64,000 nucleotides of DNA from positions 71,762,738-71,826,737 of the forward strand of contig OY757010.1 in assembly GCA_963580285.1 (NCBI GenBank), in the 5' to 3' direction. Below are positions 34,550 through 55,445 of the stretch, piece by piece. How positions within the stretch are numbered: position 1 is the stretch's first letter; each line of letters opens with the position of its first letter. A model generated the notes under the pieces. That model did no database searches and had not been told where the DNA came from. It worked only from the letters and a program-made list of their open reading frames with translations. This DNA is from Lucinisca nassula. Its lineage: Eukaryota; Mollusca; Bivalvia; Lucinida; Lucinidae. The translations under genes were made by a program, and so were the position numbers.

Positions 34550-35720
34550 AACGCCAAAGCTGTCTGGAAGTAAGTGAAAAATTACTGGTATGCACTAACA
34601 TGTAAATTATTTATATAGTACAAAACATCTTTATGTCCTGCTCACATTTTATTATATCCTGCATAATATTCTTTATATGATGTATCTACGGAACCCGGGA
34701 AGGGACATGATTTTTTTTTTTTTATTATGTTGTGCGAACAAGATATATCTTGAGCGGACAAGATATTATCTTGTTCGGACAACATATTATCTTGTGCGGA
34801 CAAGATATGATCTTGTTCGCACAACATAATATCTTGTGCGCACAAGATATTATCTTGTTCGCACAACATATTATCTTGTTTGCACAACATAGATCTTGTG
34901 AAGTTATGCGAACAAGATATTATCTTGTGCGGACAAGATATTATCTTGTGCGGACAAGATATATCTTGTGCGGACAAGATAATATCTTGTGCGCACAAGA
35001 TCTATGTTGTGCAGACAAGATATTATCTTGTGCAGACAAGATAATATCTTGTTCGCACAACTTAATATCTTGTTCGGACAAGATAATATCTTGTCTGCAC
35101 AAGATAATATGTTGTCCGCACAAGATAATTTCTTGTGCGGACAAGATATTATGTTGTGCAGACAAGATATTATCTTGTCCGCACAAGATAATATGTTGTC
35201 CACACAAGATAATATCTTGTCCGCACAAGATATTATCTTGTGCTCACAACTTATAAAATAAAAAAAAAATCATGTCCCTTCCCGGGTTCCGTATGTATCA
35301 CCTACATTATGCAGAAACCTTATGATGTTATGTATCAGCTACATTACGTGTTGCAGAAACCTTATGATGTCATGTATCAGCTACATTATATGCTGTTATG
35401 AACTTTATTATGTCATGAGAAATTGTCTTTATGTCTTGAGTCTTGTTCTTTATGTCATGCTTATGTGATGACACAATCGTATTACGTTCTGCATACTACT
35501 CATTATGAAATGCGCCAAAGCTGCCTGGTAGTAAGCGAAAAATACATTGTATATGGAACGCTCTAACATAATTATATAGTAAAAAACATCTTTATGTCCT
35601 GCTCACATTTTATTATATCCTGCATGATATTCTTTATATGATGTACCACCTACATTATGTGTTGCAGAAACCTTATGATGTCATGTGTCAGCTACATTAT
35701 ATGTTGTATGAAATTTATTA
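34550..35720 (+). repeat. Duplicated unit flanking and hosting a fold-back element
   Basis: TTTATGTCCTGCTCACATTT-TATTATATCCTGCAT occurs at about 34632 and 35592. ACCTACATTATG...CAGAAACCTTATGATG-T recurs near 35300, 35345 and 35650. Related sequence is at 43855-43945. The copy at 35637-35660 (ATGTACCACCTACATTATG) is the uninterrupted version of the target of the element at 34687-35293. No ORF is real here. Confidence 0.65.
34687..35293. mobile_element. Fold-back element FB1 with 22-bp palindrome array
   Basis: Inverted termini TACGGAACCCGGGAAGGGAC and GTCCCTTCCCGGGTTCCGTA, each followed inward by ATGATTTTTT. Exact 6-bp target duplication TGTATC at 34681-34686 and 35294-35299. The interior (34737-35250) is about 23 units of a 22-bp palindromic repeat, ATTATCTTGTGCGGACAAGA, with variants at the central bases. 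The six reading frames stay largely open because the repeat lacks stops in most phases; no protein is claimed. Confidence 0.85.
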
Positions 35721-35759
35721 TCATATCCTATCCTAAGAAGTTTTCTCTATGTCTTGAGT

Positions 35760-36180
35760 CAGGGAGCCGGTGTAGCGTGAGATTATTGATCCCGTGAGAT
35801 TCTTCAGTCGCACCGGAAGCGGCTGAAATCCCTCACGGAGGGGTGTGAGATAATTCAGACGTGAGAAGTGTAATACGATAACTCTATAAAAGACTGGGAT
35901 GTCGAAACTCTCTTAGTATATCAAATGAGCCCCGCCAAGCGAATTTGGGTCTTCGAGCATTCCGTCCTGACAAATTTTAACTGCGCATGCCCAGCCATTC
36001 AGAGGGGCCAGGGATATGGCTTTCTGTCTGAAGGTTCCTCTTGATTCACTGCTTGTATGAGCGAGCAGCGAAGGTTCTGGCGAGACTGCGCGGATGCGCA
36101 GGCTCGCCTGAACCTTTGCTGCTCGCATAGGCGATAAGTACCAAAATCGCTTGACATGGCCCAAATGATAAATTATGCTG
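35760..36180. mobile_element. MITE with inverted ends and GAGCAGC hairpin
   Basis: CAAATGAGCCCCGCCAAGCG (35923) pairs with CGCTTGACATGGCCCAAATG near 36150. A perfect internal hairpin GCGAGCAGCGAAGGTTCTGG / GCCTGAACCTTTGCTGCTCG lies at about 36059-36127. 35760-35915 upstream holds GTGTAGCGTGAGATTATTG and is unassigned. No gene. Confidence 0.55.
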
Positions 36181-36295
36181 GCACATTAATTAAAGTTTAA
36201 TTTTATGCTGCAGCAGCCTATCTAAGGAAATTCGAAGCTGTGTTACTAGTGATTTTATAATATTATAATATTTATTTATTTATTTATTTATTTAT
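36180..36295. repeat. AT-rich sequence with (TTTA)n
   Basis: TTTATTTATTTATTTATTTA near 36270. Confidence 0.7.
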
Positions 36296-38200
36296 AGACG
36301 ACTCGCACCGCTTTTCCTGGTTAGGCTTAGATCCTGTAAGCCGTTTACCAGTACTCGTGTGCGGGTCGGTTTCAGCTCTGCGTTGAGGCATCGTGCACTC
36401 TATCTATTTCTGCAAGACCCGATGGACGGGGGCAAGCTGACTTCTTACTTCTAACTTCTGTTTCGACGTTGTTTAGGTAGGTGAGTAAGTAGGTAGGTGG
36501 TTTTTGGCGAGATAGCCGGGTAGGTAGATTGGTGGCTGGGTAGGTAGGTAAGTTTGAGTTGAGGTTTAACGTCCCCTTCAAAACTATATAGGTAATTTTG
36601 AGACGCTGTTCCAATTTCGTGGGACCCGACTTTGAGATAAAAAGACATCTCAAGACCTGCGACCCAATGAAACGATATGGAGCGTGAGAGCCCAGTGGTT
36701 AGTGCACTTGCCTCTGATGCTAGAAGTCCTGGGTTCGATCCCCGGCAGCGGCGATAAAATTTCGATGTCCGAACACGCTCCATTGGCATCATTTGCAGGG
36801 TTGAATGTCATAAAGTGCACCGTTCTTCGGATCGGGACGTTAACTGGAGCCCCCCCCCCTCCCTCCCCCCCCCCCACAGTGCACGGAGAACCATCCCCTG
36901 TGCAGGTTAAAGATCCCTTCCGTAATTAGTAATTACATGATTACTGTGTAGGCTTTCATCCTGCAAACCTGGAGTGTATGTAATGTACACCTGCGGTAAT
37001 GGCCAAATATGACCGACGCAGTATCAGTAGAAAAAAAGAAGGAAACAAAAGAAACTAATAGGGTTCATATGCACTGACGGTCCGACTCGCATCACTTTGG
37101 GCGAGGGCTTAAGCGGTTTGCCAGTACTCATGTGCGGTCGGGCATCATGCAGTCCATCATTTCTTCAAGTCCCGATGGGCGGGGTAGATTTAAGTTGGTA
37201 GGTAATGAGATGTGTCTTGGTGGGTAGGTAGGTAGGTAGGTAGGTAGGTAGGCTTGATTTGAGGTTTAACGTCCCCGTCAATACTATATAGGTCATTTGG
37301 AGACGATACTTCCAATTTCTTGGGACTCGACTTTGAGATGTAAAGACATCTCAAGACCTGCCGCCCAATGAAACAAATAGGGTTTTTATGCATGGAAGGT
37401 CCTCCTCACATCACTTTGCCTGGGCAGTCTTATGCTTTGTCTGTTTGTTTGATTTGAGGTTTAACGTCCCTGTCAACACTCTAAAGGTCATTTTGGAGAC
37501 GTTACTATCAATTTTGTGGGACCCTTACCCGACATTTAGATGAAATGACATCTCAAGCCCTGTCGCCCAATGAAACCAATAGGGTTTATTGGTTTATATA
37601 GCATGGACGGTCCGCCTCGCACCGCGGTTCCTGGACAGGCTTAGATCCTCTAAGCGGTTTACCAGTACTAGTGTGCGGCCGGATTCAGCGCGGCGTGGAA
37701 GTATCATGCAGCCCATATACATGTATTTCTTCAAGCCCCTATGGCCGGGGGCTAAGGGCAGGCTTATGCGGTTTACCAGTACTTAGGTGGTAAGGAATCA
37801 TGCAGCCCATCTAGTTCTTCAAGTCCAGATGGGCGGGATAGATTTAGGTAGGCAGGTAAGGTGGGGGTGTTGGTGGGAAGGTAGGTTTTGTTTGAGTTGA
37901 GATTTTACGTCCTCGTCAACACTGTAAAGGTCATTTTGGAGACGTTGCATCCAATTTTGTGTGACTTTTACCCGGCATTGAGATGAAATGACATATCAAG
38001 CCCTGCCGCCCAATGAGACCGATAGAGTTTATAAGCATGGACGAGCCGACTCGCACCGCTTTGCTTGATCAGGCTTAGATACTCTGAGTTGTTTACCAGT
38101 ACTCATGCGCGGGTCGGTTTCAGCTCTGCGTGGGAGCATCATGCAACCCATATATTTCTTCAAGCCCCAATGCGCGGGGGCCTAAGCGAAGGTAGGTAGA
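36296..38200 (-). repeat. Cluster of R3 copies
   Basis: At least five R3 copies or pieces in the same orientation: 36296-36432 (body), 36554-36671 plus 37056-37186 (one copy split by a SINE), 37252-37440, 37441-37752 and 37887-38190, with tails of GTAGGTAGGTAGGTAG between them. The fragment 37755-37855 lacks the tail. Same orientation and near-tandem spacing suggest preferred insertion in the GTAGGTA/GTTTG tail tract or unequal exchange. Confidence 0.7.
36672..37050 (+). mobile_element. tRNA-derived SINE nested in R3
   Basis: Head GAGAGCCCAGTGGTTAGTGC, box B GGTTCGATCCC at 36732-36742. Body CACCGTTCTTCGGATCGGGA-CGTTAACTGGAG, a C-run (36850-36876), then CGTAATTAGTAATTACATGA and CGACGCAGTATCAGTAGAAA. 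It splits R3 between ACCCAATGAAAC and GAAACTAATAGGGTT (duplicated GAAAC). Confidence 0.7.
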
Positions 38201-38284
38201 TGTTTGTTTGTTTGCTTGTTTGTTTGACTTGAGGTTTAAAGTTCCGGTCAACACTGTTAAAGTTAGTTAGTACGAAAGCCGGGT

Positions 38285-39685
38285 AGGGCCATTTCTTATT
38301 TCTAACTTCTAACTTCTAACTTCTAACTTCTTAACTTCTAACTTCTAACTTCTTCTAACTTTCTTACTTCTAACTTCTAACTTCTAACTTCTTCTAACTT
38401 CTAACTTCCATGTTGTATATTGTTGTTTTTAATATATTTTTGGGTGTGAGGGAGGAGGGGGGGGGCGGGGTGATTTTACGGCCCTTCCAAGATTTTTACA
38501 CTCATATCGAGCCGACCGTTGATCAGAGGTAAGCGAAATCCGAAGTACCCGGAGAAAAGCCATCTTGCATTCCGTTGCAGAACTTGCGTTTCAACTCTGG
38601 CAATACATGTTTGGCTGTGCGTGTGGTGGGGGGTGGGGGTGGGAGGGTGTGGTGCGTGCGTTCGTGCGTGCGTGCATGTGTGTGTATACCTGTGTGAACA
38701 TTTCTTATTTCTAACATCTTATTTCTAACTTCTAACTTCTTACTTCTAACTTCTAACTTCTAATTTCTAACTTCTAACTTCTAACTTAACTTAACTTCTA
38801 ACTTCTAAACTTCTAAATTCTAACTTCTATACTTCTAATTCTAATTCAACTCTAATTTCTAATTTCTAACTTCTAACTTCTTACTTCTAACTTCTAACTT
38901 CTAATTTCTAACTTCTTACTTCTTACTTCTTACTTCTAACTTCTAACTTCCATGTTGTATAATGTTGTTTTTAATATATATTTTGGGGGGAGGGGGGCGG
39001 GGTGATTTTACGGCCCTTTCAAGATTTTTTACACTCATATCGAGCCGACCGTTGATCAGAGGTAAGCGAAATCCGAAGTACCCCGGAGAAAAGCCACCTT
39101 GCCTTCCGTTGCAGAACTTGTGCGTTTCACTCTGGCAAACCTGTGTTGGCGTGTGTGTGTGTGGGGGGGGGGGGGGGTGGGGGAGGGAGGAGTGTGGTGC
39201 GTGCGTTCGTGCGTGCGTGCATGTGTGTGTATACCTGTGTGAACATTTCTTATTTCTAACATCTTATTTCTAACTTCTAACTTCTTACTTCTAACTTCTA
39301 ACTTCTAATTCTAACTTCTAACTTCTAACTTCTTACTTCTAACTTCTAACTTCTAATTTCTAACTTCTTACTTCTAATTTCTAACTTCTAATTTCTAACT
39401 TCTAACTTCTTACTTCTAACTTCTAACTTCTAATTTCTAACTTCTTACTTCTTACTTCTAACTTCTAACTTCTAACTTCTAACTTCCATGTTGTATATTG
39501 TTGTTTTTAATATATTTTTTTTGGGGGGAGGGGGGCGGGATGATTTTACGGCCCTTTCAAGATTTTTTTACACTCATATCGAGCCGACCGTTGATCAGAG
39601 GTAAGCGAAATCCGAAGTACCCGGAGAAAAGCCATTTGGCCTTCCGTTGCAGAACGTGGCGTTTCACACTGGCAAACCTGTGTTG

Positions 39686-39772
<87 letters not shown>

Positions 39773-40320
39773 GGTGGGGGGTGTGGTGCGTACGTGCGTT
39801 CGTGCGTGCGTGCGTGTGTGTGTATACCTGTGTGAACATTTCTTATTTCTAACTTCTTATTTCTAACTTCTAACTTCTTACTTCTAACTTCTAATTCCTA
39901 ACTTCTTACTTCTAATTTCTAACTTCTTACTTCTAACTTCTTACTTCTAACTTCTAACTTCCATGTTGTATATTGTTGTAAGCGATATCCGAAGTATTTT
40001 TCTTTCTTTTTTTCTTTTTTTAGGGGGCGGGGGTTGATTTTACGGCTCTTCAAGATTTTTACACTCATATCGAGCCGATCGTTAATCAGAGGTAAGCGAA
40101 ATCCGAAGTACCCGGAAAAAGCCATCTGGCCTTCCATTGCAGAACTTGGCGTTTCACACTGGCAAACATGTGTTGGCGTGTGTGGGGTGGGGGTGGGGGG
40201 GTTGTGGTGCGTGCGTTCGTGCGTGCGTACATGCGTATGTGTGTGTGTGTATACCTGTGTGAACATTTCTTATTTCTAACTTCTTATTTCTAACTTCTAA
40301 CTTCTTACTTCTAACTTCTA
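38285..40320 (+). repeat. (TTCTAAC)n arrays with four SINE-derived blocks
   Basis: Each block reads TGATTTTACGGCCCTTTCAA, TCATATCGAGCCGACCGTTG-ATCAGAGGTAAGCGAAATCC, GAGAAAAGCCATCTTGCC and TTGCAGAACTTGCGTTTCA, then (GT)n and GGTGCGTGCGTTCGTGCG. The first part is the reverse complement of the 3' body of the SINE at 31460-31680. The long (GT)n at 39690-39770 is in the third block. Confidence 0.8.
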
Positions 40321-42245
40321 CACACACGCACGTACGCACGCACATACGAACGCACGCACGCACCCCCCCCCACACACACACGCCAACACAGATTTGCCAG
40401 TGTGAAACGCTAAGTTCTGCAAGGGAAGGCAAGATGGCTTTTCTCCGGGTACTTAGGATTTCGCTTACCTCTGTTCAACGATCGGCTCGATATGAGTGTA
40501 AAAATCTTGAAAGGGCCGTAAAATCACCCAGCCCCCGCCCCCCACCCCCCCCCCAAAAATAAGAACAACAATATACAACATGGAAGTTAGAATTTGGAAG
40601 TAAGAAGTTAGAAGTTAGAAGTAAGAAGTTAGAAGTAAGAAGTTAGAAGTAAGAAGTTAGAAGTAAGAAGTTAGAAGTTAGAAGTAAGAAGTTAGAAGTA
40701 AGAAGTTAGAAGTTAGAATTAGGAAGTTAGAAATAAGAAATGTTCACAAAGGTATACACACACACATGCACGCACGCACGAACGCACGCACCACAACCCC
40801 CCCCCCCCCCCCCACACACACACGCCAACACATGTTTGTCAGTGTGAAACGCCAAGTTCTGCAACGGAAGGCCAGATGGCTGTTCTCCGGGTACTTCGGA
40901 TTATGCTTACCTCTGATTAACGATCGGCTCGATATGAGTGTAAAAGCTTGAAGAGCCGTAAAATCACCCCCACCTCCCAAACAAAAGAAAAAAAGAAAGA
41001 AAAATACTTCGGATTTCGCTTACCTCTAATTAACGATCGGCTCGATATGAGTGTAAAAATCTTGAAAGGGCCGTAATATCATCCCCGCCCTCCCATCCCC
41101 CCCCCCCCCCCCCCAAAAAAAAAAAAAAAATTAATAACAACAATATACAACATGGAAGTTAGAAGCGAAGTAAGAAGTTAGAAGTAAGAAGTTAGAAATT
41201 AGAAGTTAGAAGTTAGAAGTTAGAAGTAAGAAGTAAGAAGTTAGAAGTTAGAAGTTAGAAGTAAGAAGTTAGAAGCTAGAAATAAGAAATGTTCACAAAG
41301 GTATACACACACACATGCACGCAGGCACGAACGCACGCACCACAACCCCCCCACCCCCCCCCCCCACCACACACACACACACGCCAACACATGTTTGCCA
41401 GTGTGAAACGCCAAGTTCTGCAACGGAAGGCCAGATGGCTGTTCTCCGGGTACTTCGGATTATGCTTACCTCTGATAAACGATCGGCTCGATATGAGTGT
41501 AAAAACCTTGAAGAGCCATAAAATCACCCCCCTCCGCCTCCCAGAAAAAAGAAAAAAAAAAAAAGAAAGAAAAATACTTCGGATTTCGCTTACCTCTGAT
41601 TAACGATCGGCTCGATATGAGTGTAAAAATCTTGAAAGGGCCGTAAAATCACCCCCCCCCCCAAAAAAAAAAAAAAAAAAAAATATTAAAAACAACAATA
41701 TACAACATGGAAGTTAGAAGTTAGAAGTTAGAAATTAGAAGTTAGAAGTTAGAAGTAAGAAGTTAGAAGTTAGAAGTTAGAAATTAGAAGTTAGAAGTTA
41801 GAAATAAGATGTTAGAAATAAGAAATGTTCACACAGGTATACCACACATGCACGCACGCACGCACGAACGCACGCACCACACCCTCCCTCCCACCCCACA
41901 CACACACATACATACGCCAACACAGGTTTGCCAGTGTGAAACGCCAAGTTCTGCAACGGAAGGCAAGATGGCTTTTCTCCGGGTACTTCGGATTTCGCTT
42001 ACCTCTGATCAACGGTCGGCTCGATATGAGTGTAAAAATCTTGAAAGGGCCGTAAAATCACCCCCTCCCCCCCCTCCCCCAAAAATATATTAAAAACAAT
42101 AATATACAACATGGAAGTTAGAAGTTAGAAGTAAGAAGTTAGAAGTTAGAAGTAAGAAGTCAGAAGTTAGAAGTAAGAAGTTAGAAGTAAGAAGTTAGAA
42201 GTAAGAAGTTAGAAGTTAGAAGTTAGAAATAAGAAATGGCCCTAC
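40321..42245 (-). repeat. Inverted arm: (GTTAGAA)n arrays with SINE-derived blocks
   Basis: Mirror of the left arm: CAACGGAAGGCCAGATGGCT, TCTCCGGGTACTTCGGATTT, ACGATCGGCTCGATATGAGT and TTGAAAGGGCCGTAAAATCA separated by GAAGTTAGAAGTAAGAAGTT. Arms differ in block number and in homopolymer lengths, so they are not a trivial mirror copy. Confidence 0.8.
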
Positions 42246-42257
42246 CCGGCTTTCGTA

Positions 42258-43545
42258 GTTTAGAGACAATGCGACCAATTGCGAACAATTTGTTGGTTTT
42301 TACCCGACATTGAGATGCAATGACATCTCAAGCCCTGTCGCCCATTGAAACCAATAGGGTTTATTAGCATGGACGATCCGCCTCGCACCGCGGTTCCTGG
42401 ACAGGCTTAGATCCTCTAAGCGGTTTACCAGTACTAGTGTGCGGGCCGGATTCAGCTCTGCGTGGAAGTATCATGCAGCCCATATATTTCTTCAAGCCCC
42501 TATGGCCGGGGGCTTAGGGCAGGCTTATGCGGTTTACCAGTACTCAGGTGGTAAGGAATCATGCAGCCCATCTAGTTCTTCAAGTCCAGATGGGCTGGGT
42601 AGATTTAGGTAGACAGGTAAGGTGGTGGTGGGAGGTGTTTGTAGGAAGGTAGGTTTTGTTTCATTTGAGGTTTAACGCCCCCGTCAACACTAAAGGTCAT
42701 TTTGGGGACGTTGCTTCCAATTTTGTGTGACTTTTACCCGAAATTGAGATGAAATGACATCTCAAGCCCTGCCACCCAATGAGACCGATAGAATTGATAA
42801 GCATGGACGAGCCGACTCGCGCCGCTTTGCTTGGTCAGGTTTAGATCCTCTAAGCGGTTTACCAGTACTCATACGCGGGTCGTTTTGAGCTCTGCGTGGA
42901 AGCATCATGCAGCCCATATATTTCTTCAAGCCCCGATGGGGGGGGGGGGGGGGGGGGGGGGGTCCTAAAGGAAGGTATGTAGATGTTTTGTTTGCTTGTT
43001 TGTTTGACTTGAGGTTTAAAGTTCCCGTCAACACTGTGAAAGTTAGTTTGGAGACATTGCGACCAATTGCGACCAATTTGTTGGATTTTTTACCCGACAA
43101 TGATATGAAATGACTTCTCAAGTTATACCGCCTTATGAAACCAATAGGGTACTTAGGTAGGTAGGTAGGCACGTACGTACGTAGGTACGTAGGTAAATAT
43201 AAGTAAATGTATGTCTAACCGCCCATTCCCATACAGAAGGAAGCCTCCTTTCTGATTAGGAAGAAAGACCTATTTAATTGATAACTGATTGAAATGTAAT
43301 TAGTACATTTGTTTGTTTGATCTGAGGTTTTACGTCCCCGTCAACACAGTATAGGTCATTTTGGAGATGTTGCTTCCAATTTTGTGGGACTTTTACCCGA
43401 CATCTCAAGCCCTGCCACCCAATGAAACCAATAGGGTTTATATGCATGGGCGCACCACTTTTAAACCGGTCGGTGTCAGCTCTGCATGGAAGCATCATGC
43501 AACCCAATCTATTTCTTCAAGCCTCGATGGGCGGGGGCCAGAAAT
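42258..43545 (-). repeat. Cluster of R3 copies, right of FB3
   Basis: 42291-42520 (continuation of the copy split by FB3), 42522-42600 (fragment), 42655-42945 (complete, ending in a G-run at 42939-42962), 43005-43160 and 43308-43540. (GTAG)n/(GTAC)n tracts lie between. The block 42360-42640 is very close to 37610-37850, including the odd GGCTTATGCGGTTTACCAGT fragment, so FB3 is flanked by long direct duplications. Confidence 0.7.
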
Positions 43546-43656
43546 TAGTACAAACTTACAAAACGGGAAAGTATTTTTACCAATTACAATTAACATATTC
43601 TAATTGGAAATTAAAGGAGTGTATCAGCCATCCCACTCCCTAACACCACCTCAAGA

Positions 43657-43855
43657 ATATGGGACGTTTTGTCCACCCTGTCAAATTAGCATGGGAGGCT
43701 TTGTCCACCCTGTCAAAATCATGTGGGACGTTTTGTCCACCCAGAAAAAATGATGTGGGATGTTTTGTCCACCCTGAAAAAATGACGTGGGACGTTTTAT
43801 CCACCTGGTCAAAAAAGGCATGGGACGTTTTGTCCATGGGACGTTTTGCCCCTGA
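43657..43855. repeat. Tandem repeat, 32-33-bp unit
   Basis: Seven units starting ATGGGACGTTTTGTCCACCC or variants at about 43659, 43691, 43724, 43756, 43788, 43820 and 43837. Each unit contains GGGACG..TTTGTCC, a weak palindrome. Confidence 0.75.
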
Positions 43856-44384
43856 GTCTTGTTCTTTATTTATGCTACTATTTCGTTATATATGATGACA
43901 AAATCGTATTACGTTCTGCACGCTACTCATTATGAAATGCACTAATTTCTTTATATAATGTATTATATTATTTGATGTGGTGCTTTTATATGATTTTGCT
44001 TTTCTTTATATGCGGTGTCAAGTTCATTACATTATGTAAAACTTCTTTATATGCGTGGCTTTCTTTATATGATGGGGGTAAATTTAATATATAAAATGGA
44101 TTATATCACCGGTTTGAAATATTTGTATATTTGCCGGAATGAATACGGGTGATTCGCATCTGCGTTATTTCTCCTTGTCATTTCACCATTGGATGTTTCG
44201 CCCTACTTTATAGAGTTGTCGATTCGCACCAGCTAGAAATGTGTCGATAGAACACGGATGCCCCAGCCTGGTAGCACAGTTATGAAAATTGTAGCGTAAA
44301 ATGATAACGCAATATCGGACGAGTACTACATGCCCTTTCCAACAGTCTTCACTTAGCCCTAATACAGATTTGCCCATATTCCTT
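43856..44384. repeat. Copy related to 35446-35515, then unassigned
   Basis: GAGTCTTGTTCTTTATTTAT and CAAAATCGTATTACGTTCTG-CACGCTACTCATTATGAAAT match 35446-35515. The rest, including GGATGTTTCGCCCTAC at 44191, has no gene that I can support. Confidence 0.45.
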
Positions 44385-45355: not shown

Positions 45356-45554
45356 GTACGGGCATCATTTTTATCGCACAAGTATAGCTTTTGTAAAAAG
45401 CTAGGTCTACGCTTAGCACATATCAACTGTAGATGTCTAGAATTATATCCCAGAAATATATTTTATAGAAATCTAATTGCCATTCTGGCATTTTAATAGT
45501 AATACTACTAGACCATGTGCATTTCCATCCTTGTTTGATACTTTTGGACTTATT

Positions 45555-45780: not shown

Positions 45781-45785
45781 TGGGC

Positions 45786-46370
45786 TGTTGTGTCGTGAGC
45801 TATCCTGAAACGCCGACCGGAAGGTAATGAGTTTTACCAACTTGGATATTCAATAGTACCCGGGAAGCGAGAAAAGCATGCAGTAGAGACCACGCTCTTG
45901 AGTACAGCTCGGCCACTTCAAGAGACAAGACCAGTGCATCTGCCAGGGAGATTCTCAGCCATTTACCCAGGTAAGGCTTGTTTCCTGTCCCGTCCCCAGT
46001 CCTGGTCCCGCATACGGGTTATTAAAAATACATTATTTGGCGACGAGCGATAAAACGGAAGGGGGGAATTCTCCGGTCATTTCGTTAGAAGTGTATTACT
46101 ACTTCACGAGTTATCCTCGGATTCGTGAGGGACGGTGAACATGATACGCGGTCCACTTCGTTATTTATTTAACGTTGGGGATTGTGAAGGGTTCAAATTT
46201 ACTTCACGTTTTCGGACGTGGGGGACGGTGAACATGATACGCGGTTCCTTTTGTTTACAGAGTGAACTGTGAAGGGTTCAACTCTTGATAGCCTGAAGGG
46301 TTGAAATTGTAGGCAGGTGAAGTTCTGAGGCATTTAGCTTCTTGGTTTGGCCTGTTTATTTATTCAACAT
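45786..46370 (+). repeat. Possible solo-LTR or leader of an LTR element
   Basis: TGTTGTGTCGTGAGC at 45786 and ATACA at about 46030 could be LTR ends, followed after four bases by TGGCGACGAGCG, which resembles a primer-binding start. Downstream, GGGACGGTGAACATGATACG-CGGT occurs twice (46129 and 46228) and GTGAAGGGTTCAA twice. No gag or pol follows. Weakly supported. Confidence 0.3.
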
Positions 46371-46374
46371 CGTG

Positions 46375-46570
46375 TCCCCCCTGTAAACTACGCGAAATTC
46401 AGGGTAAAGTTTTATGGGGTAAACATTATTTTCATTTCTGGGCCAAAAACATTCGTTGCGGATACTCGTAAGAACCGCCATACTTATGCAGGCCTAATGA
46501 GTGCCCACAATCTTTACTTGTGAACGAAATAAGAAAACGATAACACATTTACATGAGAAAAGTACTCGTA
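46375..46570. repeat. A/B-type MITE, degenerate
   Basis: TAAAGTTTTATGGGGTAAAC, GCGGATACTCGTAAGAACCG-CC and GAGTGCCCACAATCTTTA are recognisable remains of the hairpin core. Confidence 0.5.
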
Positions 46571-46853
46571 ACACGTATTGCGTCATGAAATAACGCGAGG
46601 TGCTTTGTCGTACCACAGGACATTGACGTTTCACTATTCAACCTAAAACAAGCCTAAATCCACTTATTCTCTTATTAAGCACCGAAGTCTATGACCACAA
46701 GCAGCTATGTCTAGGGCTGTTCTTTGTTCTTCTGTCAGTAGAGCCATTACCATGACACACGAAAATCAACACCATTTACTTGCAGGCAAACGCCGATCAA
46801 ACAAATTGTACAGAAAGACGAATAGAAAGTCCAAAAATATGTAATAATATATA

Positions 46854-47782
46854 CTCAGTCAAAAAAGTTCCTATACGTAAAATTGCTTCTTTTACTATAG
46901 CTACTACAGAAAAAAACTACATGAAGTTTGTTATCTTTTGGTAAGAAGACGCATTTTTTTTTCGTGTTAAAGCCCCATTCGTTTTTGTTTGCGTAAACAC
47001 ATCACTGTAGACTATTGCTTTAAACACCCAAGGGGTCACTATGTCATTTTCACAGAGAAAATCATTAAAACCTGCTATGATTTAACATCACAAAATTTCC
47101 CTGTACCCTACATTTCTAAAATTTGATACAAGTTACATTTCATTAGATACCATTTGCGTTTATTCACAAAAGATTTGGAACTTTAGTTGCATCAGCAACG
47201 AGAAACAGGCTATCACATATTGACCTCCAATTCTTAGAAGTTGTGCGCAAATGCTGCTTTCAATGGGAACTCCATAGAAAATCGCAGTCGATAGTGCTAC
47301 ATGCTACATGATTTTTCTGTATTTTTACCATTATGATGAACAGCAATAGTGGAAACAAAGCGTTTGTTTGAAAAATGGCAAAAATTGATTGACAGGAATA
47401 AAAATGACAGCAGTTCGAAAATTGCCATACTTTTAATTGCAAGGGAGATAATTTGAGAATTTCACAAATTAAAACCTCGCTTATAATGCGAGATCATGAG
47501 ATATTGCAAAAGTAAGGTGTTATCCGATGTTCAGACGACATTTTCTTCCATCTTAGATGAAAAAGAGATTTCTGCGCATGCGCAATGTCCATTTTCTACC
47601 AAAATCTTTCTAGACACATATTGCAAGACAACTCTGGAGCAGAAAGGTATGAGCAAATGCAAGTTTAGGCATACTCTAGCTAAACGTTCGATTTACATCT
47701 CTACAGCCAAACTTAGCTCAACAGCTGTCAGATATCTAGTGAGTTTCACCCGGAAGTTGGTATAGTTACTTTTTTGACTAAG
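46854..47782. mobile_element. Tc1/mariner-like nonautonomous element
   Basis: TA-flanked termini CTCAGTCAAAAAAGTTCCTA and TAGTTACTTTTTTGACTAAG, imperfect inverted repeats of about 24 bp. 929 bp without a recognisable transposase. The open frame 47496-47765 shows no DDE or helix-turn-helix motif. Confidence 0.6.
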
Positions 47783-48215
47783 TATATAAAAATAACGATA
47801 ATATCTTTTAAAAAGTGTAGATTTCTTTCAAATTGTAAGGAACACCGGCCTTTAGACGTTTTCCGACGTTAAGAGATTACGGGTTTTATCCATTTTCAGT
47901 ACAGTTACTTCCCTTGAACCATTTACTGCGGGATATCCTGATTGATCTTGATCGATACGAGGAAGTAAAATTTTATCGGATAAAAATGGGAATTGTAGAC
48001 TTCTGGCTGAAATATTAGCGCCGTTTGTTGAAGAACAAATTGTTCCTCAAGTCAAATACAAATACATTTATGACGTCCCAGATTGTGTCACAAATTAACA
48101 AACAATAGTGCTTGTCTGCATCGGACGTGGTTGTCCTTCGCAAGTTTCGCTTGCTTATAAGAGTATAAGTGGATTTAGGCCACTGTGAGGGCTCTTTTAA
48201 GTTTTCTGGTGAAAC

Positions 48216-48502
48216 CATCACGAAAACACACATATATAATTTCGACCCCCTTGAACCCAACTTTTATATAGTACAACTGGGGTTAACATGGGCAAACCTT
48301 ATTTTTTTATTTCTTTTCTAAATATATAGATTGTGGGTACTCGTTAGAACCGCCTCGATGAGGCGGTTCTAACGAGTACCCACACTCAATATTTTGAGCA
48401 GAAATAAGAAAAAAATATTACAATTTTTCATCTTAAAATTTTCATTTTTACGGCGATAAAGGGTATAGTATAATGTATTTGTATAGGCGTGTTTTCGTAA
48501 TG
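48216..48502. mobile_element. MITE family A, complete copy with known empty site
   Basis: CATCACGAAAACACACATAT ... TATAGGCGTGTTTTCGTAAT. Perfect hairpin at about 48327-48386. The inverted relative at 46600-46625 reads GTGAAACGTCAATG where this locus has GTGAAAC + element + CGTCAATG, so the target duplication is at most one or two bases. Confidence 0.8.
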
Positions 48503-48569
48503 CGTCAATGTCCTGTGGTCGTACGGAAGTGTTATTCTTGTGGTTGTTGTTTTGTGCTCATCACGTTAT

Positions 48570-48720
48570 CATCAATACGATAACACACCTGTGTGGCATA
48601 GAGCATTTTTCTCATCTTCAAAATGGCTACTTTTCTGATGAAAATCCTTGATATTTTTCCTATAAATGCTCACAACATAGGTTGAGTATGCTCGTTAGAA
48701 CCGGCTAACTGATCAGAAAA
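48570..48720. repeat. MITE family B, left half
   Basis: ACGATAACACACCTGTGTGG, CATCTTCAAAATGGCTACTT and CATAGGTTGAGTATGCTCGT-TAGAACCGGC, cut at the hairpin tip. Confidence 0.6.
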
Positions 48721-48739
48721 GTAACCATTTTGTAGATAT

Positions 48740-49093
48740 GCACTTTAGCATATGACGTCGCCTCTGAGAATGTAATAACGTCGTGTAATAAATTCGATAA
48801 TCCACTAGTGGATTAAATATGCAAATTAGTTAAATACGCCTCGTAACGTTACATATATGACGTCCTTAGCGACGTCGCGTTTACTAATGTCGGAAAATTG
48901 ACATATTTGTAAAATAATCGTGAATAAAATGCGTCTAAATGTATTATGATGAATAGAATCTTACCTTCGTGTTCATGTATAATTCAATTTATTAAACTCG
49001 TTGAGGAAAAGTGATGAAATGCTCGGCAAAGCCTCGCATTTTATCCCTTTTCCTCAACTCGTTTAATAAATTCAATAATACATGAACACTCAT
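48740..49093 (-). repeat. Hairpin repeat family E, best full copy
   Basis: Flank AATCCACTAGTGGATTAAA, then ATTATGATGAATAGAATCTT, then the palindrome GTGTTCATGTATAATTCAAT with GATGAAATGCTCGGCAAAGC at the tip, ending TTCAATAATACATGAACAC. Inverted relative to 18385-18750. Confidence 0.7.
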
Positions 49094-49119
49094 ATATCAC
49101 ACGGACGTGTTATCGTAAT

Positions 49120-49121
49120 GT

Positions 49122-49215
<94 letters not shown>

Positions 49216-49232
49216 GCACGCACGCACACACA
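49120..49232. repeat. (CA)n/(CGCA)n microsatellite
   Basis: Pure ACACAC and CGCACGCA tracts. Confidence 0.9.
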
Positions 49233-49264
49233 AAAAAACAGTAAGAGAACCCAAGAAACATTAC

Positions 49265-49399
49265 GGTAAATCCAGATGAAAGGCTGCTCCTTTTAATGTC
49301 AGTGGCAAAGATTCCCCCGATGTTCTCAAAACCTCCAAGCACAAGATCACGTTCACCATCACAGACCTTCATTGTCGCCACAGATTCTATTTCCAGTCC
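49265..49399 (-). CDS. Candidate 45-codon host exon (phase 0-0)
   Basis: Reading leftward, a polypyrimidine tract and TTATTTTTTCACAG form a good 3' splice site. 135 bp are then open in phase 0, encoding GLEIESVATMKVCDGERDLV then LGGFENIGGIFATDIKRSSL and SSGFT. ACC|GTAATG gives an acceptable 5' splice site. The composition is protein-like, the length is an exact multiple of three, and the segment is not in any repeat family seen here. I do not recognise the protein or a domain. It lies on the same strand as the exon at 33878-33987 and could belong to the same gene. The microsatellite beside it is intronic on this reading. Confidence 0.55.
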
Positions 49400-49509
49400 C
49401 TGTGAAAAAATAAAAAAGTACCATTTACTCAACATATCTGATCTTGGTCAATTCCATCGGGATGAAATAGTATTCACACTTGAGGACCAAGTGATCCGGA
49501 TGAAACTGC

Positions 49510-49736
49510 ATTCTAATGCACTTGCGTATGTAACGCGACGTCTGATTGGATAACGTCAAAAATTTGCGACAAAAGTTTGCGACAGTATATTCTGTGATAT
49601 TCTGTCGGAAACCCGACGTCATCATGTAAACTCGTTTTTCATTGGCTGGCATTTGGTTTTACGCAGCTCACATAGCCTGCCGCTTTGTGCAAAAAAGTAC
49701 ATTGTTAACAAAACAACCGAATAAGTGCATTAGAAT
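49510..49736. mobile_element. MITE family I, copy 2
   Basis: Perfect 14-bp inverted ends ATTCTAATGCACTT and AAGTGCATTAGAAT. Interior TTGGATAACGTC, CGACGTCATCATGTAA and TTTCATTGGCTGGCATTTGG-TTTTACGCAGCT match, inverted, 20130-20316. Noncoding. Confidence 0.7.
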
Positions 49737-49971
49737 GGGGGTAACAACTGCAAATTTTCATTTGGGGAGGTACATCGTCGGTTTTACGGTGACGTGTTAG
49801 TGCCGAATTTCCGACCGTAAAACTTCAATATAGCTATTGCCGTTCTGTTGTTTAGACAAAAAATTGTACTTTTTTTACTCATGTTATGCATAAGAATTTA
49901 TTTTTCTGATTCCCACTTTCACCCCACTGTTGACCTAATAGTGCTATAAATATCTTGTTAATCTTCTTATA

Positions 49972-49984
49972 GAAGATTCTAGAA
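49972..49984 (+). promoter_or_regulatory. Heat-shock element, three perfect units
   Basis: GAAGATTCTAGAA: alternating GAA/TTC/GAA at exact 2-bp spacing, the binding pattern of HSF trimers. About 157 bp upstream of the TATA box. Confidence 0.6.
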
Positions 49985-50011
49985 AACTGAGTCACAGATT
50001 AATTTCATTTT

Positions 50012-50030
50012 TGTAAACAACATGTTTACA
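50012..50030. promoter_or_regulatory. Paired forkhead-type sites
   Basis: TGTAAACAACATGTTTACA is an exact inverted repeat of TGTAAACA around three bases, matching the FOX core TGTTTAC on both strands. Function is inferred. Confidence 0.4.
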
Positions 50031-50045
50031 AGGAAAAGTACTTCA

Positions 50046-50063
50046 GAACCTTCCAGAAAGTTC
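50046..50063 (+). promoter_or_regulatory. Heat-shock element, four perfect units
   Basis: GAACCTTCCAGAAAGTTC: GAA, TTC, GAA, TTC at exact 2-bp spacing. It lies 77 bp upstream of TATAAAAG, as in classical heat-shock promoters. Confidence 0.65.
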
Positions 50064-50140
50064 AGGTTTGCATTATTTTTAGAAAATTACATCATCTTAT
50101 TCCATAGCCCTGTGGAACATGCTAGAGAAATCTTAGGGTC

Positions 50141-50148
50141 TATAAAAG
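50141..50148 (+). promoter_or_regulatory. TATA box of the LTR
   Basis: TATAAAAG, with the sequence downstream free of ATG until the leader; transcription would start about 30 bp on. Confidence 0.55.
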
Positions 50149-50435
50149 AGCTTGATTTTTCTCATTGAAACTTTGGAGTTTGAAGTTTGGGCTTAGAAGA
50201 AAAGTTAGTTCTAAATTCTGTGTTGGATTGTTATAGGATATTACTTTTCCTTTTGGACTGTGAGTTCTGTGGGATCAAGGAAAAGAGATTCATTCAGGAT
50301 AATTCATAACAGAGCTAAGTACATTTAATTTTCTTACTTCTACAGGTTAAATTAACTTGTAAATGAATTTTGTTGAATTTAATCAAAAGGCTTGTTTGCT
50401 TATTCTTTCTGCTACACCTGGCTCGTAACAGAAAT

Positions 50436-50453
50436 TGGGGGCTCGTCCGGGAT
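50436..50453 (+). promoter_or_regulatory. Primer-binding site, tRNA-Pro type
   Basis: TGGGGGCTCGTCCGGGAT, the 18-nt primer site complementary to the 3' end of tRNA-Pro known from murine-leukaemia-type retroviruses. Five bases after the LTR end. It fixes the LTR boundary and the plus orientation. Confidence 0.85.
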
Positions 50454-50730
50454 AAAAACATCTTGAGCATTTTAGGACTGACAATCTATTTGTAGGTAAG
50501 TAATTGTCATTTGTTATCAAATAAAGACTTGGCAGTTGCTTCACAGGATTTGTATTTCCCTATAGGCATATAGGGATTGTCATTTCATGTGAATTGTCAT
50601 TTCAGGTGAAATAGTACTTGTCATTTCATGTGAAATTTTCGTTGGGCTTTTCATTGCAAAAAAAAACTTTGTCAAATTAACCTCAATCTGTATTACCATA
50701 ATTACTTTATAATACTAACAAAAAGCAAAC

Positions 50731-51750
50731 ATGTCGTTTGATTTGAGAAGCTTTTTGGCTCAGCCTGCTCATGAGTTGTTTAATCTGGCCAAAATGACAG
50801 ATTTGTTAGAAATTGCTTCCCATTATGGGGTCACTGCTGTCAAAACAAGCATGAAGAAGCATGAAATGAAGAATAATTTGGTACAGTTTTTTCTTGATGA
50901 AGAACTTTTCGATCCATCTGCTTGGTCTCTCATTATGGTTTCACATACGGAATTACAAATGAGACAAATTGAAATAGGAAGGCAAATTGAATTAGAAAAA
51001 TTAAGGCTAGAGATGGAAGAACGCATACAGAAAGAAAAAAAATGAAAAGGAAGAACAAGAAAGAGAAATGGAGAGACAAATGCAGATGGAAAGATTAGAA
51101 ATGGAAGAAAGAGAGAGGGAAAAACAAAGAGAAATGGAGGAACGCATTCAGAAAGAAAAAAATAGAAAAAGAAGAACGGCTCGTGTTGGAAAAGGAAAAA
51201 AATGAGATATAGTATTGAAGAAAAAGAAAGGGAAAGGCAGTTTCAGTTAAGATTGAAGGAAATGGAACTCCAGGGTCAAGATGAAACATACCCCTGTTTT
51301 TGACTGTGGTAGTTACTTTGATGCCACAAAGCACATCAGATTAGTTCCACCATTTCAGGAAAAAGAGGTAGATAAGTATTTTTTGCATTTTGAAAAAGTT
51401 GCAGAAAATTTAAAATGGCCAAAAGAGCATTGGACCTTACTTTTGTAAAGCGTTGTTGTCCGAAAGGCTCGAGACATTTACACTCAGCTGACTGTCGAGC
51501 AAAGCTCAGACTATGATTTAATTAAGGAGCTTACTCTTAAGGCATATGAGTTGGTCCCTGAGGCTTACAGGCAGAAATTTAGAGATTGTAAAAAAGAAAT
51601 TTCCTAGACCCATGTAGAATTTGCTCGAACCAAAGAACGGCTATTTGATAGGTGGTGTTCTTCTAAAAAAGTAGGCTCTAATCATGAAAAACTTAGACAG
51701 CTTGTCCTTGTTGAAGAGTTCAAACGGTGCATAAATTCAGACATTAAAAA
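50731..51750 (+). pseudogene. gag: Gmr1-like gag, N-terminal and capsid part, frameshifted
   Basis: Starts MSFDLRSFLAQPAHELFNLA at 50731, followed by a charged coiled-coil-like stretch rich in E, R and K. The frame is broken at A-runs near 51038, 51155 and 51197. The capsid-like region follows in another frame, with FDATKHIRLVPPFQEKEVDK, AYELVPEAYRQKFRDCKKE and LRQLVLVEEFKRCINSDI. The last part resembles the capsid C-terminal region from which the vertebrate SCAN domain is thought to derive. TAA (51447) and TAG (51605) stops also interrupt it. Gag would package the element RNA. This copy cannot make an intact protein without correction, though several breaks are in homopolymers and could be assembly errors. 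Confidence 0.75.
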
Positions 51751-52175
51751 TAAAAAATGAGTGCCTTTAAGAGCAATGAAAACCTTCATAAGAAAGAAGA
51801 TGGGTCATACTACGCAGTTTCGGCTAATAAAGCCTCATCAGTGACCCTGTAATGATCCGGCAACGAAAGCCAGAGGAAACGTACTGCAATTTTGCGAATT
51901 TCGAATAGGCAGTCAATTCAAAGACTGATATAAATCAAAATGGGGTCCAAATAAATAAAAACCTGTCTAGAATATGAGTCTAAACCAATAATTTATTTCT
52001 GATTTCTCAGAATATTTACGCTGATCGCAAAGGACCAAAAGTAAAATATAAACTGCACTATGGTTGATGTACGGGGAGACGTTTTACGGCCGCCACACGG
52101 CACAACACCAGCTGCAGTGAAGGCAAATAAAAATCAAAAATGAGTGCCTTTAAGAGCAATGAAAACATTCATAAG
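51750..52175 (-). repeat. Repeat L copy inserted in gag
   Basis: Flanked by a direct repeat of about 45 bp (AAAATGAGTGCCTTTAAGAG, then CAATGAAAACCTTCATAAGA) at 51757-51803 and 52138-52180. Inside are GGCTAATAAAGCCTCATCAG-TGACCC and GGGGAGACGTTTTACGGCCG, shared with 22690 and 44490. Gag-like coding resumes at about 52181 (GACAGGTTGAAACTTTGGAG). Confidence 0.6.
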
Positions 52176-52180
52176 AAAGA

Positions 52181-53031
52181 TTAAGACAGGTTGAAACTTT
52201 GGAGGAAGCTTCTCGTTTGGCAGATGATTATGCTTTGACTCATAAAGTAGAAGAAAAACAAAGATCAGGAATTTTTCAGGATCAGTCTCATTTGTGAACA
52301 AGCCTTATCCTCGAAAACCTTATAATCCACAGACAGGTCCTCGATTCTATCCCAGTAATCCTTCTGGTAGTTATAGCCATACATCTAGTACTATGCCCAA
52401 ACTTTCTGGTGAAAATAAAAGCCAGAATCCTTCCAAACCTTCTGGAGAAAACAGAAGCCAGAATTTTTCCAAACCTTCTGGTGAAAACAAAGACCAGAAT
52501 CCCTTATCTCAATCTCAAGTAGTTTGTTATTATTGTAAAAATACAGGTCATTTGATCTCTGAGTGTTTAAAATTAAAGCGAAGGAAAGAAAGAGAAAGAC
52601 AAGAGGAACTTAAGCCTACAGGCTTGACTTCTATAAGGCCAAAACCACAGTCTTGTGTAAGGGAGGAAACTCTTTCTGATACCAAATTATCTGAGACTGA
52701 TTCAGTTATGAAGATTTATGAACCATTCTTGTCAGATGGTTTTGTGTCACTAAATGGTGACAGTTATGCCCATCCTACCCCTATTAAAATCTTACGAGAT
52801 ACTGGAGCTTCTCAATCTCTTATTCTAGCAGATACTCTGCCTTTTTCTGAGAAGACTTCTATGGGCCAAAGTGTCCTTATTCAGGGTGTGGAATGTGGAT
52901 TTGTTAATGTTCCGCTTCATAACGTTTATTTGTCATCAGAGTTGGTATCCGGTTCAGTGGCTGTTGGTATTAGACCTTTACCTTTTAAAGGTGTTCATTT
53001 ATTGCTAGGCAATGACTTAGCTGGAGATTAG
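52181..53031 (+). CDS. Gmr1-like gag end and aspartic protease
   Basis: After the insertion the gag frame reads VETLEEASRLADDYALTHKV. The main open stretch from 52294 has Pro/Ser-rich repeats (KLSGENKSQNPSKPSGEN), then a CCHC zinc knuckle CYYCKNTGHLISEC (C78, C81, H86, C91 counted from 52294). The protease follows, with the active-site triad DTG at residues 169-171 (LRDTGASQSL) and the LLGNDLAG motif at the C-terminus. The knuckle binds RNA; the protease would mature Gag-Pol. No ATG opens this segment; it is part of a polyprotein. The frame ends at a TAG (53029-53031), after which integrase follows in the same frame. Confidence 0.8.
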
Positions 53032-53034
53032 GTT

Positions 53035-54000
53035 GTGGTAAACCCACTTTTGACTTCTAATCCTTGCACTGATCAACCACCGGATCCCATTGAGCAGGAA
53101 ATTCCTGATCTTTATCCGTCCTGTGCAGTCACAAGGGCTATGGCACGTATAGCCAAGCAAACTGATGGGAAACAGGATTTTGATTTTACTGATACCTTTT
53201 TGCGTCAGTCTTTTAATGACGAGATAACAAGGTCTCTGTCTTCAAGCCTGCCTGATAAGCAGACAGATTTTCACGAGAATAAGTCCTCTTTAGATCTAGG
53301 CCATGACAAAATGTCCGGGTCTCAACTAGCTATAGAACAGCGTAAGGATCCTGAAATTTCGCCTTTGTTTGAAAGGGCTTTAGATGAGCATGAAGTATCT
53401 CAGGTCCCAGTCTGTTATTATGTCAAAAAGGACATTCTTATGAGAAAATGGCGTCCGCCCGACGTCTCAGCAGAAGACGAGTGGACAGTCAACCACCAGA
53501 TAGTGGTTCCACGGGTTTACCGTCCCGGATTATTAAACTTGACATATGAAACTCCCATGTCAGGACATTTAGGTGTAAATAAAACCTATCACAAGATCCT
53601 TAATCATTTTTACTGGCCTGGGTTAAAATCAGATGTTTCTCAGCATTGTCGGTCCTGCCATACATGCCAAATGGTAGGAAAACCCAATCAGACTATACCT
53701 AAGGCTCATTTGCAGCCTATACCTGCTTATGATGAACCTTTTAGTCGAATTATTATAGACTGTGTAGGTCCCTTGCCCAGAACTAAGTCTGGCTGTGAAT
53801 ATCTTTTGACTATTATGTGTGCTTCCACACGTTTTCCTGAAGCCATTCCTTTAAGAAATATCAAAACTAAGACAATCGTCAAGGCCTTAGTGAAGTTTTT
53901 CACATTTGTTGGGCTTCCTAAATCTATTCAGTTAGACCAAGGCTCAAATTTTATGTCTGGAATATTTCAACAAGTACTGCATGAACTTAATATCACCATT
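53035..54000 (+). pseudogene. Gmr1-like integrase, truncated in the catalytic core
   Basis: In frame with the protease after one TAG. It begins with a linker (YPSCAVTRAMARI), then the HHCC zinc-binding domain (GHLGVNKTYHKILNHFYWPG and CRSCHTCQ, first His near residue 178 from 53035). The DDE core has D242 in DCVGPLPRTKSG and D301 in LDQGSNFMSG. The catalytic Glu is missing because the frame runs into family A MITE sequence at about 54001, so it cannot integrate DNA. Integrase follows protease directly, with no reverse transcriptase or RNase H between. That is the domain order of Gmr1-like elements and not the usual gypsy order. The 3' part with reverse transcriptase would have lain beyond the break. 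Confidence 0.8.
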
Positions 54001-54072
54001 TTTCAGCTTAAAATTTTCATTTATTCGGCGGTTAGTGTTACAGTGTATTTATATTGGCGTGTTTTCGTGATG
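54001..54072. repeat. MITE family A, right half
   Basis: TTTTCAGCTTAAAATTTTCA to ATTGGCGTGTTTTCGTGATG. No hairpin; marks the break point of the retrotransposon. Confidence 0.65.
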
Positions 54073-54089
54073 ACACATCACTCACTTGT

Positions 54090-54369
54090 CATTACGAAAA
54101 CACGCCTGTACAAATGCATTGTAAACTCTACCGCCAAGAAAAACGATTTTTTTTATGCCGAACATAGTTATATCTTTCTTATTTCTGCTCAAAATATAGA
54201 TTGTGGGTTCTCGTTAGAACCGCCTCGGTGAGGCGGTTCTAACGAGTACCAACAATCTTCGTTTTTGAGCAGAAATAAGAAAAAAAAGGTTTACCCCGGT
54301 AAACCCCAGTTTCACCATATAAAAGAGGGTTCAAGGGGGTCGAAATTATATAGGCGTGTTTTCCTGATG
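54090..54369. mobile_element. MITE family A, complete copy
   Basis: CATTACGAAAACACGCCTGT ... TATAGGCGTGTTTTCCTGAT. Perfect hairpin core TCGTTAGAACCGCCTCGGTG and complement near 54212-54248. Its left half accounts for the C-terminal residues of the open frame that starts in the integrase. Confidence 0.8.
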
Positions 54370-54408
54370 TATTTCGGTAAAGCATGTCCATCTTGGTAAT
54401 CAGTCAAG

Positions 54409-55445
54409 TACGGAACCCGGGAAAGGACATTTCTGTTCCAGTATCTAGCAGAACAGAATTTAAAACAATAAAATTAGAGTGGAGAGGAAAACAAGATTGT
54501 CGTTTAAACGATATACTGTGTCGTTTAAACGACATATTTCTTGTTTTTTGTTCCACTCTGAAAAAGTAGCGTGGGGTTCAAAACAATACAATTAGAATGG
54601 AACAAAACACAAACATGTGTCGTTTAAACGACACATTTCTTGTTTTCCGTTCCACTCTGAAAAAGTAGGGTGGAACATAAAACAATAAGATTAGAATGGA
54701 ACAGAAAAACAAACGACATATTCCTTCTTTTTCTTTCCACTCTGATAAAGTAGCCCGGAATTTAAAATAATAAAGATGTAGTTTAATCGACATAATCTTG
54801 ACCTTTCATTGGCTTATATCACCAACCGATGGAAGGCTAGGATTATATCGTTTAAACGACATATTATGTTGAAAAAGCGAGATCTTGAACCAATGGTAGG
54901 TGAAGATTATGTCGATTAAACGATATCTTTATTGTTTTAAACTCCACGCTACTTTTTCAGAGTGGAACGGAAAAAAAGAAATATGTCGTTTAAAGGACAT
55001 ATTTTTTCTGTTTGATTTGAGGTTTAACGCCCCCGTCAACACTGTTTCGGTCATTTTGGAGACGTTGCTTCCAATTTTGTGGGGCTTTTACCAGACATTG
55101 AGATTAAATGACATCTTAAGCCCTGTCGCCAAATGTAACCAATATGGTTTATAAGCATGGTAGGTTCGACTCACACCGGTTTGCATGGGCAGGCTTAGAT
55201 ACTCTAAGGGTTTACCAGTACTCGTGTCAGCTCTGCGTGGAAGCATCATGCAGCCCATCTATTTCTTCAAGCCCCGATGGGCGGGGGCCAAAACGACATT
55301 TTTTTGTTTTCTGTTCCATTCTAATTTTATTGCTTTAAATTCCACCCTATTTTTTCAGAGTGGGAAAGAAAACATATTCCTTGTTTTCCTCTCCACTCTA
55401 ATTTTATTGTTTTAAATTCTGTTCTGCTAGATATTGGGTTCCGTA
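54409..55445. mobile_element. Fold-back element FB2 with TCGTTTAAACGA palindromes
   Basis: Starts TACGGAACCCGGGAAAGGAC, ends GATATTGGGTTCCGTA. Exact 6-bp target duplication GTCAAG (54403-54408 and 55446-55451). Inner inverted repeats CTAGCAGAACAGAATTTAAA and complement, then nested palindromes. Perfect TCGTTTAAACGA occurs at about 54500, 54520, 54620 and 54848, separated by inverted copies of GTTCCACTCTGAAAAAGTAG. An R3 copy is nested at 55005-55290. Noncoding. Confidence 0.85.
55005..55290 (-). mobile_element. R3 repeat nested in FB2
   Basis: GTTTGATTTGAGGTTTAACG to CCCCGATGGGCGGGGGCC, between the FB2 sequences ACATATTTTTT and AAAACGACATTTTT. Confidence 0.75.

Follow-up and report, generated by a model that had tools for sequence, protein, structure and literature searches.

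A short terminus common to miniature and fold-back elements of the bivalve Lucinisca nassula, and the family's own ends as an insertion site

The 64,000-nucleotide stretch of the Lucinisca nassula genome analysed here (contig OY757010.1, positions 71,762,738 to 71,826,737 of the forward strand; hereafter the window) contains three repetitive elements, FB1, FB2 and FB3, which a preliminary description had assigned to a single fold-back transposon family with one terminus and interchangeable palindromic cargo. The termini and coordinates given there hold for FB1, for FB3 and for the left side of FB2, while the right end of FB2 turned out to be shortened. The features concerned are, in window coordinates:

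34681..34686, + strand: left target duplication of FB1, TGTATC
34687..35293, no strand assigned: FB1, a 607-bp non-autonomous element with the 22-bp terminus at both ends and an array of 21-bp palindromic units
35294..35299, + strand: right target duplication of FB1, TGTATC
38266..38270, + strand: left target duplication of FB3, GTTAG, one T lost from GTTTAG
38271..42257, no strand assigned: FB3, a 3,987-bp fold-back element with the related terminus TACGAAAGCCGGGTAGGGCC and arms of ~2 kb
42258..42263, + strand: right target duplication of FB3, GTTTAG
42837..43150, + strand: uninterrupted paralogue of the repeat that hosts FB3, a stand-in for the empty site, with GTTTGG at the target
54403..54408, + strand: left target duplication of FB2, GTCAAG
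54409..55445, no strand assigned: FB2, 1,037 bp, a member of the fold-back class with GTTTAAAC-centred palindromes
55010..55299 (approximate bounds), no strand assigned: interspersed repeat within FB2, a homologue of the repeat interrupted by FB3
55436..55445, - strand: shortened right terminus of FB2, which retains the outer 10 bp (TACGGAACCC) of the 22-bp end and then departs from it
55446..55451, + strand: right target duplication of FB2, GTCAAG

FB1 and FB2 have in common a 22-bp terminus with 7,634 forward and 7,595 reverse matches in the 2.93-Gb genome (up to two mismatches), whereas the same pattern read backwards, used as a control, has none. The terminus of FB3 is related, being identical to that of FB1 at 16 of 20 positions (consensus TACG.AA.CCGGG.AGGG.C), and occurs 171 and 187 times, against 1 and 0 for its backwards control. 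The interiors of the three classes are unrelated, as first described and as comparisons among copies agree: in BLAST at E 1e-3 the similarity of FB1 and FB2 is confined to the first 22 bp, and neither matches FB3. Neighbouring ends were analysed at the listed places only, i.e., 100 exact matches for each terminus. Among these, 25 of 28 neighbours within 10 kb face inward for the FB1/FB2 end and 27 of 28 for the FB3 end, none face outward in either case, and the FB3-type pairs are 368 to 6,253 bp long (median 2,964). The terminus has no exact match in viral contigs, and the literature text matched by three terminus strings of 10-13 bases has, among the matches listed, titles that look unrelated.

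Exact 6-bp target duplications flank all 33 two-ended FB1/FB2-type copies tested, including TGTATC at FB1 and GTCAAG at FB2, both as first reported. The set comprises 15 copies (FB1, FB2 and 13 from the sample of loci L009-L029, in which the right end was located without use of the duplication) and the other 18 exact pairs listed, tested with 22-bp stretches (10/10 and 8/8 duplicated). Not counted were the outer copy at L018 and the copy at L026, for which the duplication had served to locate the right end; each is consistent with 6 bp. In the first 15 copies 6 bp is the sole fitting length, apart from one poly-A target that also fits shorter lengths. With both strands counted, the duplication begins with G in 36 of 66 readings and its middle is A/T-rich, pointing to a weak insertion preference for G-W-W-W-W-C. 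At FB3, comparison of the joined flanks with the paralogue at 42837-43150 shows that the target was GTTTAG, with one T missing from the left copy; a decayed duplication had already been proposed for this element. Neither a lack of consistent duplications nor a predominance of unpaired ends, on which the preliminary description would have given up the family, was found in these samples.

The sample L009-L029 consists of 21 loci, which take in all places listed as far as 20.12 Mb, each with at least one exact end. Of 24 copies examined, 15 are two-ended with exact 6-bp duplications and nine were found one-ended; a degenerate end at position 506 of L019 and a second end at position 707 of L027 were left out of the count. 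In the latter locus (501-726) a family end is followed 206 bp on by another of the same orientation, its first two bases mismatched. At L021 a hairpin-like palindrome of ~100 bp (TCAAAATTACTC...GAGTAATTTTGA) adjoins the broken end of a 21-bp array, beyond a one-ended copy. The copy at L026 (524-802) is two-ended, with a right end reduced to TGTTCCGTA and an exact 6-bp duplication, and resembles the shortened end of FB2.

Three of the 33 tested insertions sit inside another terminus of the family: L018 (target GGGTTC), L065/L066 (CTTCCC) and L083/L084 (TGGAAG within GAACCCTGGAAGGGACAT). The interrupted end is exact over the 18 bp read at L065 and has one mismatch over 18 bp at L083. Insertion at bases 11-16 (GGGAAG) of the 20-bp end predicts the junctions CCCTTCCC|TACGG and CCGGGAAG|TACGG, which have 75 and 104 exact matches in the genome, with none for the reversed control of either. 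A composition-matched 8-mer control for the first junction, CTCCCTCC|TACGG, has no match either, and the junction expected at the adjacent site, CCGGGTTC|TACGG, has three. Pairing all 75 first junctions with the second junctions listed (100 of 104) gave at least 39 inserted copies that have both junctions, on 15 contigs and with 20 distinct lengths from 244 to 1,587 bp, while random targeting by some 7,600 insertions predicts ~0.04 such paired copies at one site. The family terminus is thus an insertion hot spot at bases 11-16, and this own-end targeting is the new element of the present analysis and the one most worth following. Lengths of the own-end insertions below 1 kb (n=37; two longer nests left out) follow a ladder of 21 bp, with R=0.847 against 0.67 at 20 and 0.69 at 22, and four pairs of adjoining junctions on one strand point to chained nests.

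The interior of FB1 is a tandem array. Tandem Repeats Finder places it at 34726-35249 with a period of 21 and 24.8 copies, replacing the period of 22 first stated. FB1 aligns with its own reverse complement at an identity of 0.858 (maximum of 100 dinucleotide shuffles, 0.581), but its palindromy is mostly within the 21-bp unit, because off-register self-alignments (82-84%) nearly match the one in register (86%). The inverted ends of FB1 are alike for about 22-25 bp, beyond which the sub-terminal arms differ, and the sole open reading frame above 120 aa falls inside the array. The FB1 type, being short, of high copy number and equipped with inverted ends and target duplications, shares these traits with miniature inverted-repeat transposable elements (MITEs), whereas the lengthy, internally tandem-repetitive inverted arms that characterise fold-back elements are seen in the FB2 class and in FB3 and not in FB1, where the symmetry resides in the unit. 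Rfam microRNA-precursor matches over FB1 (34801-35254) stay below the gathering score; this identity was rejected and the matches are taken as hairpins only, such as hairpin arrays would give.

Comparison among copies bears on how these interiors arose. Each class seems to have received its interior by descent rather than by exchange of cargo: 13 FB1-type copies align collinearly from end to end and include two subfamilies of four whose interiors are 93-96% and 93-98% identical. No cargo exchange was seen, and the notion of interchangeable cargo is not supported. Among gaps above 12 bp in pairwise FB1-type alignments, the commonest lengths are 21 (29 cases), 17 (19) and 42 (9), although these counts are not mutually independent. 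Element lengths fall on a ladder with R=0.66 at period 21 (Rayleigh p ~3e-5), compared with 0.59 for a period of 20 and 0.50 for one of 22; this covers 24 of 25 pairs, without the 1,461-bp pair, which exceeds 1 kb. The preliminary description had ascribed the palindromic fill to replication slippage or fold-back repair. The 21-bp ladder supports slippage or unequal exchange, while continuing fold-back repair is not supported for FB1, because the two arms are distinguishable in most of 11 FB1-type copies. Tandem repeats borne by MITEs, and models of their growth, have been reviewed in the accessible part of PMC12628747.

Self-complementarity over the whole length, claimed for all three elements, is evident for FB1 and for FB3 (identity 0.760; maximum of 10 shuffles, 0.526). 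For FB2 it is marginal by identity (0.543 against a maximum of 0.538 in 100 shuffles) and clear by alignment score (187 against 46); when the interspersed repeat is removed the identity is 0.656 against 0.557. Palindromes centred on GTTTAAAC and tandem units in the interior are also present in two longer FB2 relatives, L011 (1,461 bp, with 220-bp arms that are 100% identical) and L015 (1,214 bp, arms 95% alike). L011 arms are 97-98% like those of L015 and differ by 9% from the left arm of FB2; the L015 arms being only 95% alike, within-copy homogenisation of the arms is therefore not shown by the data. The arms of FB3 consist of (TTCTAAC)n arrays alternating with dispersed-repeat blocks, four in one orientation and six in the other, around an inversion point at ~40,320. 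Pieces of these blocks recur at 76-89% identity at 31583-31674 of the window and in seven other loci, so that the block first called a short interspersed nuclear element (SINE) is a dispersed repeat and, as a SINE, putative.

Comparisons with published elements refer here to the accessible text of the papers cited. IS3EU elements always have TA..TA ends, usually have 6-bp duplications and lack an HHCC motif (PMC10045372), and fungal IS3EU families have TAYGG..CCRTA ends with terminal inverted repeats (TIRs) above 30 bp (PMC12730594). In the present family the terminal dinucleotides are TA..TA and the duplications 6 bp, and TACGG..CCGTA was found in FB1, in FB2 and in all but two of the 13 copies sampled, those two having TGCGG at the left end. 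The IS3EU-like signature tentatively proposed before agrees with the IS3EU/GingerRoot superfamily as published (PMC10045372, PMC12730594). The inverted repeats of the FB2 class (220 bp) and of FB3 (longer still) exceed the fungal 30 bp, and those of FB1 (about 25 bp) do not.

The preliminary description had suggested looking for an autonomous copy that encodes a transposase between the family termini. A genome search with profile NF033577 and a KRBA2-like query found no transposase between family ends. The profile gave 68 scored candidates, of which 30 loci, mostly with long frames, were fetched; judged by frame length they would be gypsy-like (only L036 was domain-scanned). No family terminus was found in these 30 loci at up to six mismatches, except for single six-mismatch matches in six of them, and these loci were rejected as sources of the family transposase on account of their long, presumably gypsy-like frames and the lack of convincing family ends. 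The KRBA2-like query gave 11 strong genome matches, nine of them with internal stop codons; a relationship of KRBA2-like proteins to GingerRoot is not supported in this analysis. The one that was read, L060 (G000:C2:60390900-60395500), is a KRBA2-like relic with one stop, one frameshift and an H2C2 domain, and no family terminus occurs in its 4,601 bp at up to seven mismatches. On the basis of this one locus of the 11, a KRBA2-like transposase was rejected as the partner, given the missing end and the H2C2 domain, which IS3EU lacks according to PMC10045372. L060 also has a cysteine-rich C-terminal frame and, upstream of the gene, short palindromic repeats.

We consider it probable that FB1 is a MITE and FB2 and FB3 are fold-back elements of one family, moved in trans through their short terminus with 6-bp duplications and with a hot spot in the family's own ends. 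A transposase supplied in trans, putatively of IS3EU type, would recognise the short terminus and insert the elements with a 6-bp duplication and the weak G-W-W-W-W-C preference. Slippage or unequal exchange would alter the number of units, inverted duplication of one end via gene conversion or template switching could have produced the fold-back arms, and own-end insertion may occur when transposase bound to the end of one copy captures the end of another copy as its target. More tentatively, an IS3EU-type transposase might prefer its own bound ends, and end-in-end insertion together with template switching might give rise to both the fold-back architecture and the one-ended copies.

Several observations weigh against this explanation and are best considered with the alternatives. 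The elements could be non-autonomous members of a different superfamily that also makes 6-bp duplications (hAT6, Dada or an undescribed one), the IS3EU signature being convergent. Dada is a superfamily with such duplications. No transposase was recovered, the FB3 end begins with TACGA and departs from TAYGG, the inverted ends of FB1 fall short of the fungal TIR length, and the evidence for an FB3-type duplication comes from one copy, itself with one base lost. We nonetheless regard another superfamily as unlikely, as TACGG..CCGTA in FB1 and FB2 and the 6 bp in 33 of 33 copies agree with published IS3EU. The one-ended copies (9/24) likewise count against the family as proposed. That the elements are not transposons at all, and are satellites or simple-repeat arrays that merely happen to be flanked by inverted repeats, a suspicion prompted by their tandem-repeat interiors, is extremely improbable in view of the consistent exact duplications, the nested insertions with duplications of their own and the empty reversed-pattern control for the FB1/FB2 end.

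The hot spot faces objections of its own. The second junction is backed by the reversed-pattern control only, and 36 of 75 first and 61 of 100 second junctions are without an exact partner among the matches listed, which may be due to divergence on the other side, to local duplication or to the extent of the listing. Five unpaired same-strand junctions lie within 2.2 Mb on G000:C10 (27.86-30.00 Mb), which suggests local duplication of one nest, and 11 of the 39 nests are 670 bp long and six 649 bp long, so that some could have descended from one composite. The recurrent lengths and the clustered junctions would be expected if one or a few composites had been amplified in place of repeated targeted insertion. 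We hold this to be improbable for the junctions as a whole: the inner lengths number 20, span 244 to 1,587 bp over 15 contigs and follow the same ladder as ordinary copies, and the three interrupted ends among the 33 tested copies differ from one another. For the interiors, fold-back repair, one of the two sources of palindromic fill named in the preliminary description, might be regenerating the palindromes copy by copy. The perfectly identical arms of L011, which are 9% off the left arm of FB2, would fit such a process, yet FB1-type copies mostly retain two different arms and interiors collinear by descent, and the arms within L015 are no closer than arms compared between L011 and L015; active regeneration is accordingly rated as quite unlikely.

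Bacterial IS911 and IS30 also show insertion directed to their own end, but beside the inverted repeat, whereas insertion here is into bases 11-16 of it. Maize Ds belongs to the hAT superfamily. It resembles the present family in combining a short common terminus with very different interiors, and differs in its 11-bp ends (PMC3260210). Common ends and fold-back arms have precedents in Tetris/DAIBAM and Galileo. Tetris and DAIBAM of Drosophila virilis match the present elements in their fold-back structure, variable tandem-repeat arms, an end common to a MITE and an autonomous partner that was not found (PMC4079207); DAIBAM has been interpreted as derived by deletion from an element like Tetris, while FB1 and FB2 have the end alone in common. 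Tetris has duplications of 8-10 bp and is assigned to Mutator by its authors (PMC4079207), and a Mutator fold-back of this type was rejected for the present family, given 6 bp in all 33 copies. Galileo likewise has long, internally repetitive inverted ends with tandem-repeat expansion and arm extension by exchange, and arm formation by inverted duplication has been proposed for it, but its transposase is known and belongs to the P superfamily (PMC3573991). Among IS3EU-like elements, Styx of Zymoseptoria is similar in its 6-bp duplications and de novo solo ends and different as a fungal coding element with a 36-bp TIR (PMC10853768). The oyster satellites CgiSat35 and CgiSat47, annotated DNA/IS3EU, are likewise IS3EU-linked tandem repeats in a bivalve, but appear as table entries, for which the accessible text describes neither ends nor a fold-back structure (PMC8268682). 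What sets the present family apart from described IS3EU and GingerRoot is that no transposase was found, that the FB1 ends are alike for so short a distance and that fold-back arms are not described for IS3EU in the accessible parts of PMC10045372 and PMC12730594.

Most fold-backs seem to be Mutator elements according to the accessible text of the Tetris paper (PMC4079207); if the superfamily assignment holds, the architecture arose in IS3EU elements too. A literature search, outside which most subscription papers lay, found no report of an IS3EU fold-back family or of own-end targeting by one. With its fixed own-end site, the family allows the way in which a eukaryotic transposase chooses its target to be tested against an end-capture model. 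Own-end insertion also provides a specific path by which plain pairs of ends could become repeats that are nested, inverted or one-ended, and so bears on the open question of the origin of fold-back elements and of satellites carried by transposons.

Two further coding remnants lie in the window. At 6608-7141 (- strand) a 177-aa frame with a DDE_3 domain is presumably a fragment of a Tc1/mariner-like transposase. At 52294-54231 adjacent frames of 245 and 398 aa carry H2C2 and rve domains, with a zinc knuckle just under the cut-off, and represent a piece of a gypsy-like retroelement that terminates 178 bp before FB2.

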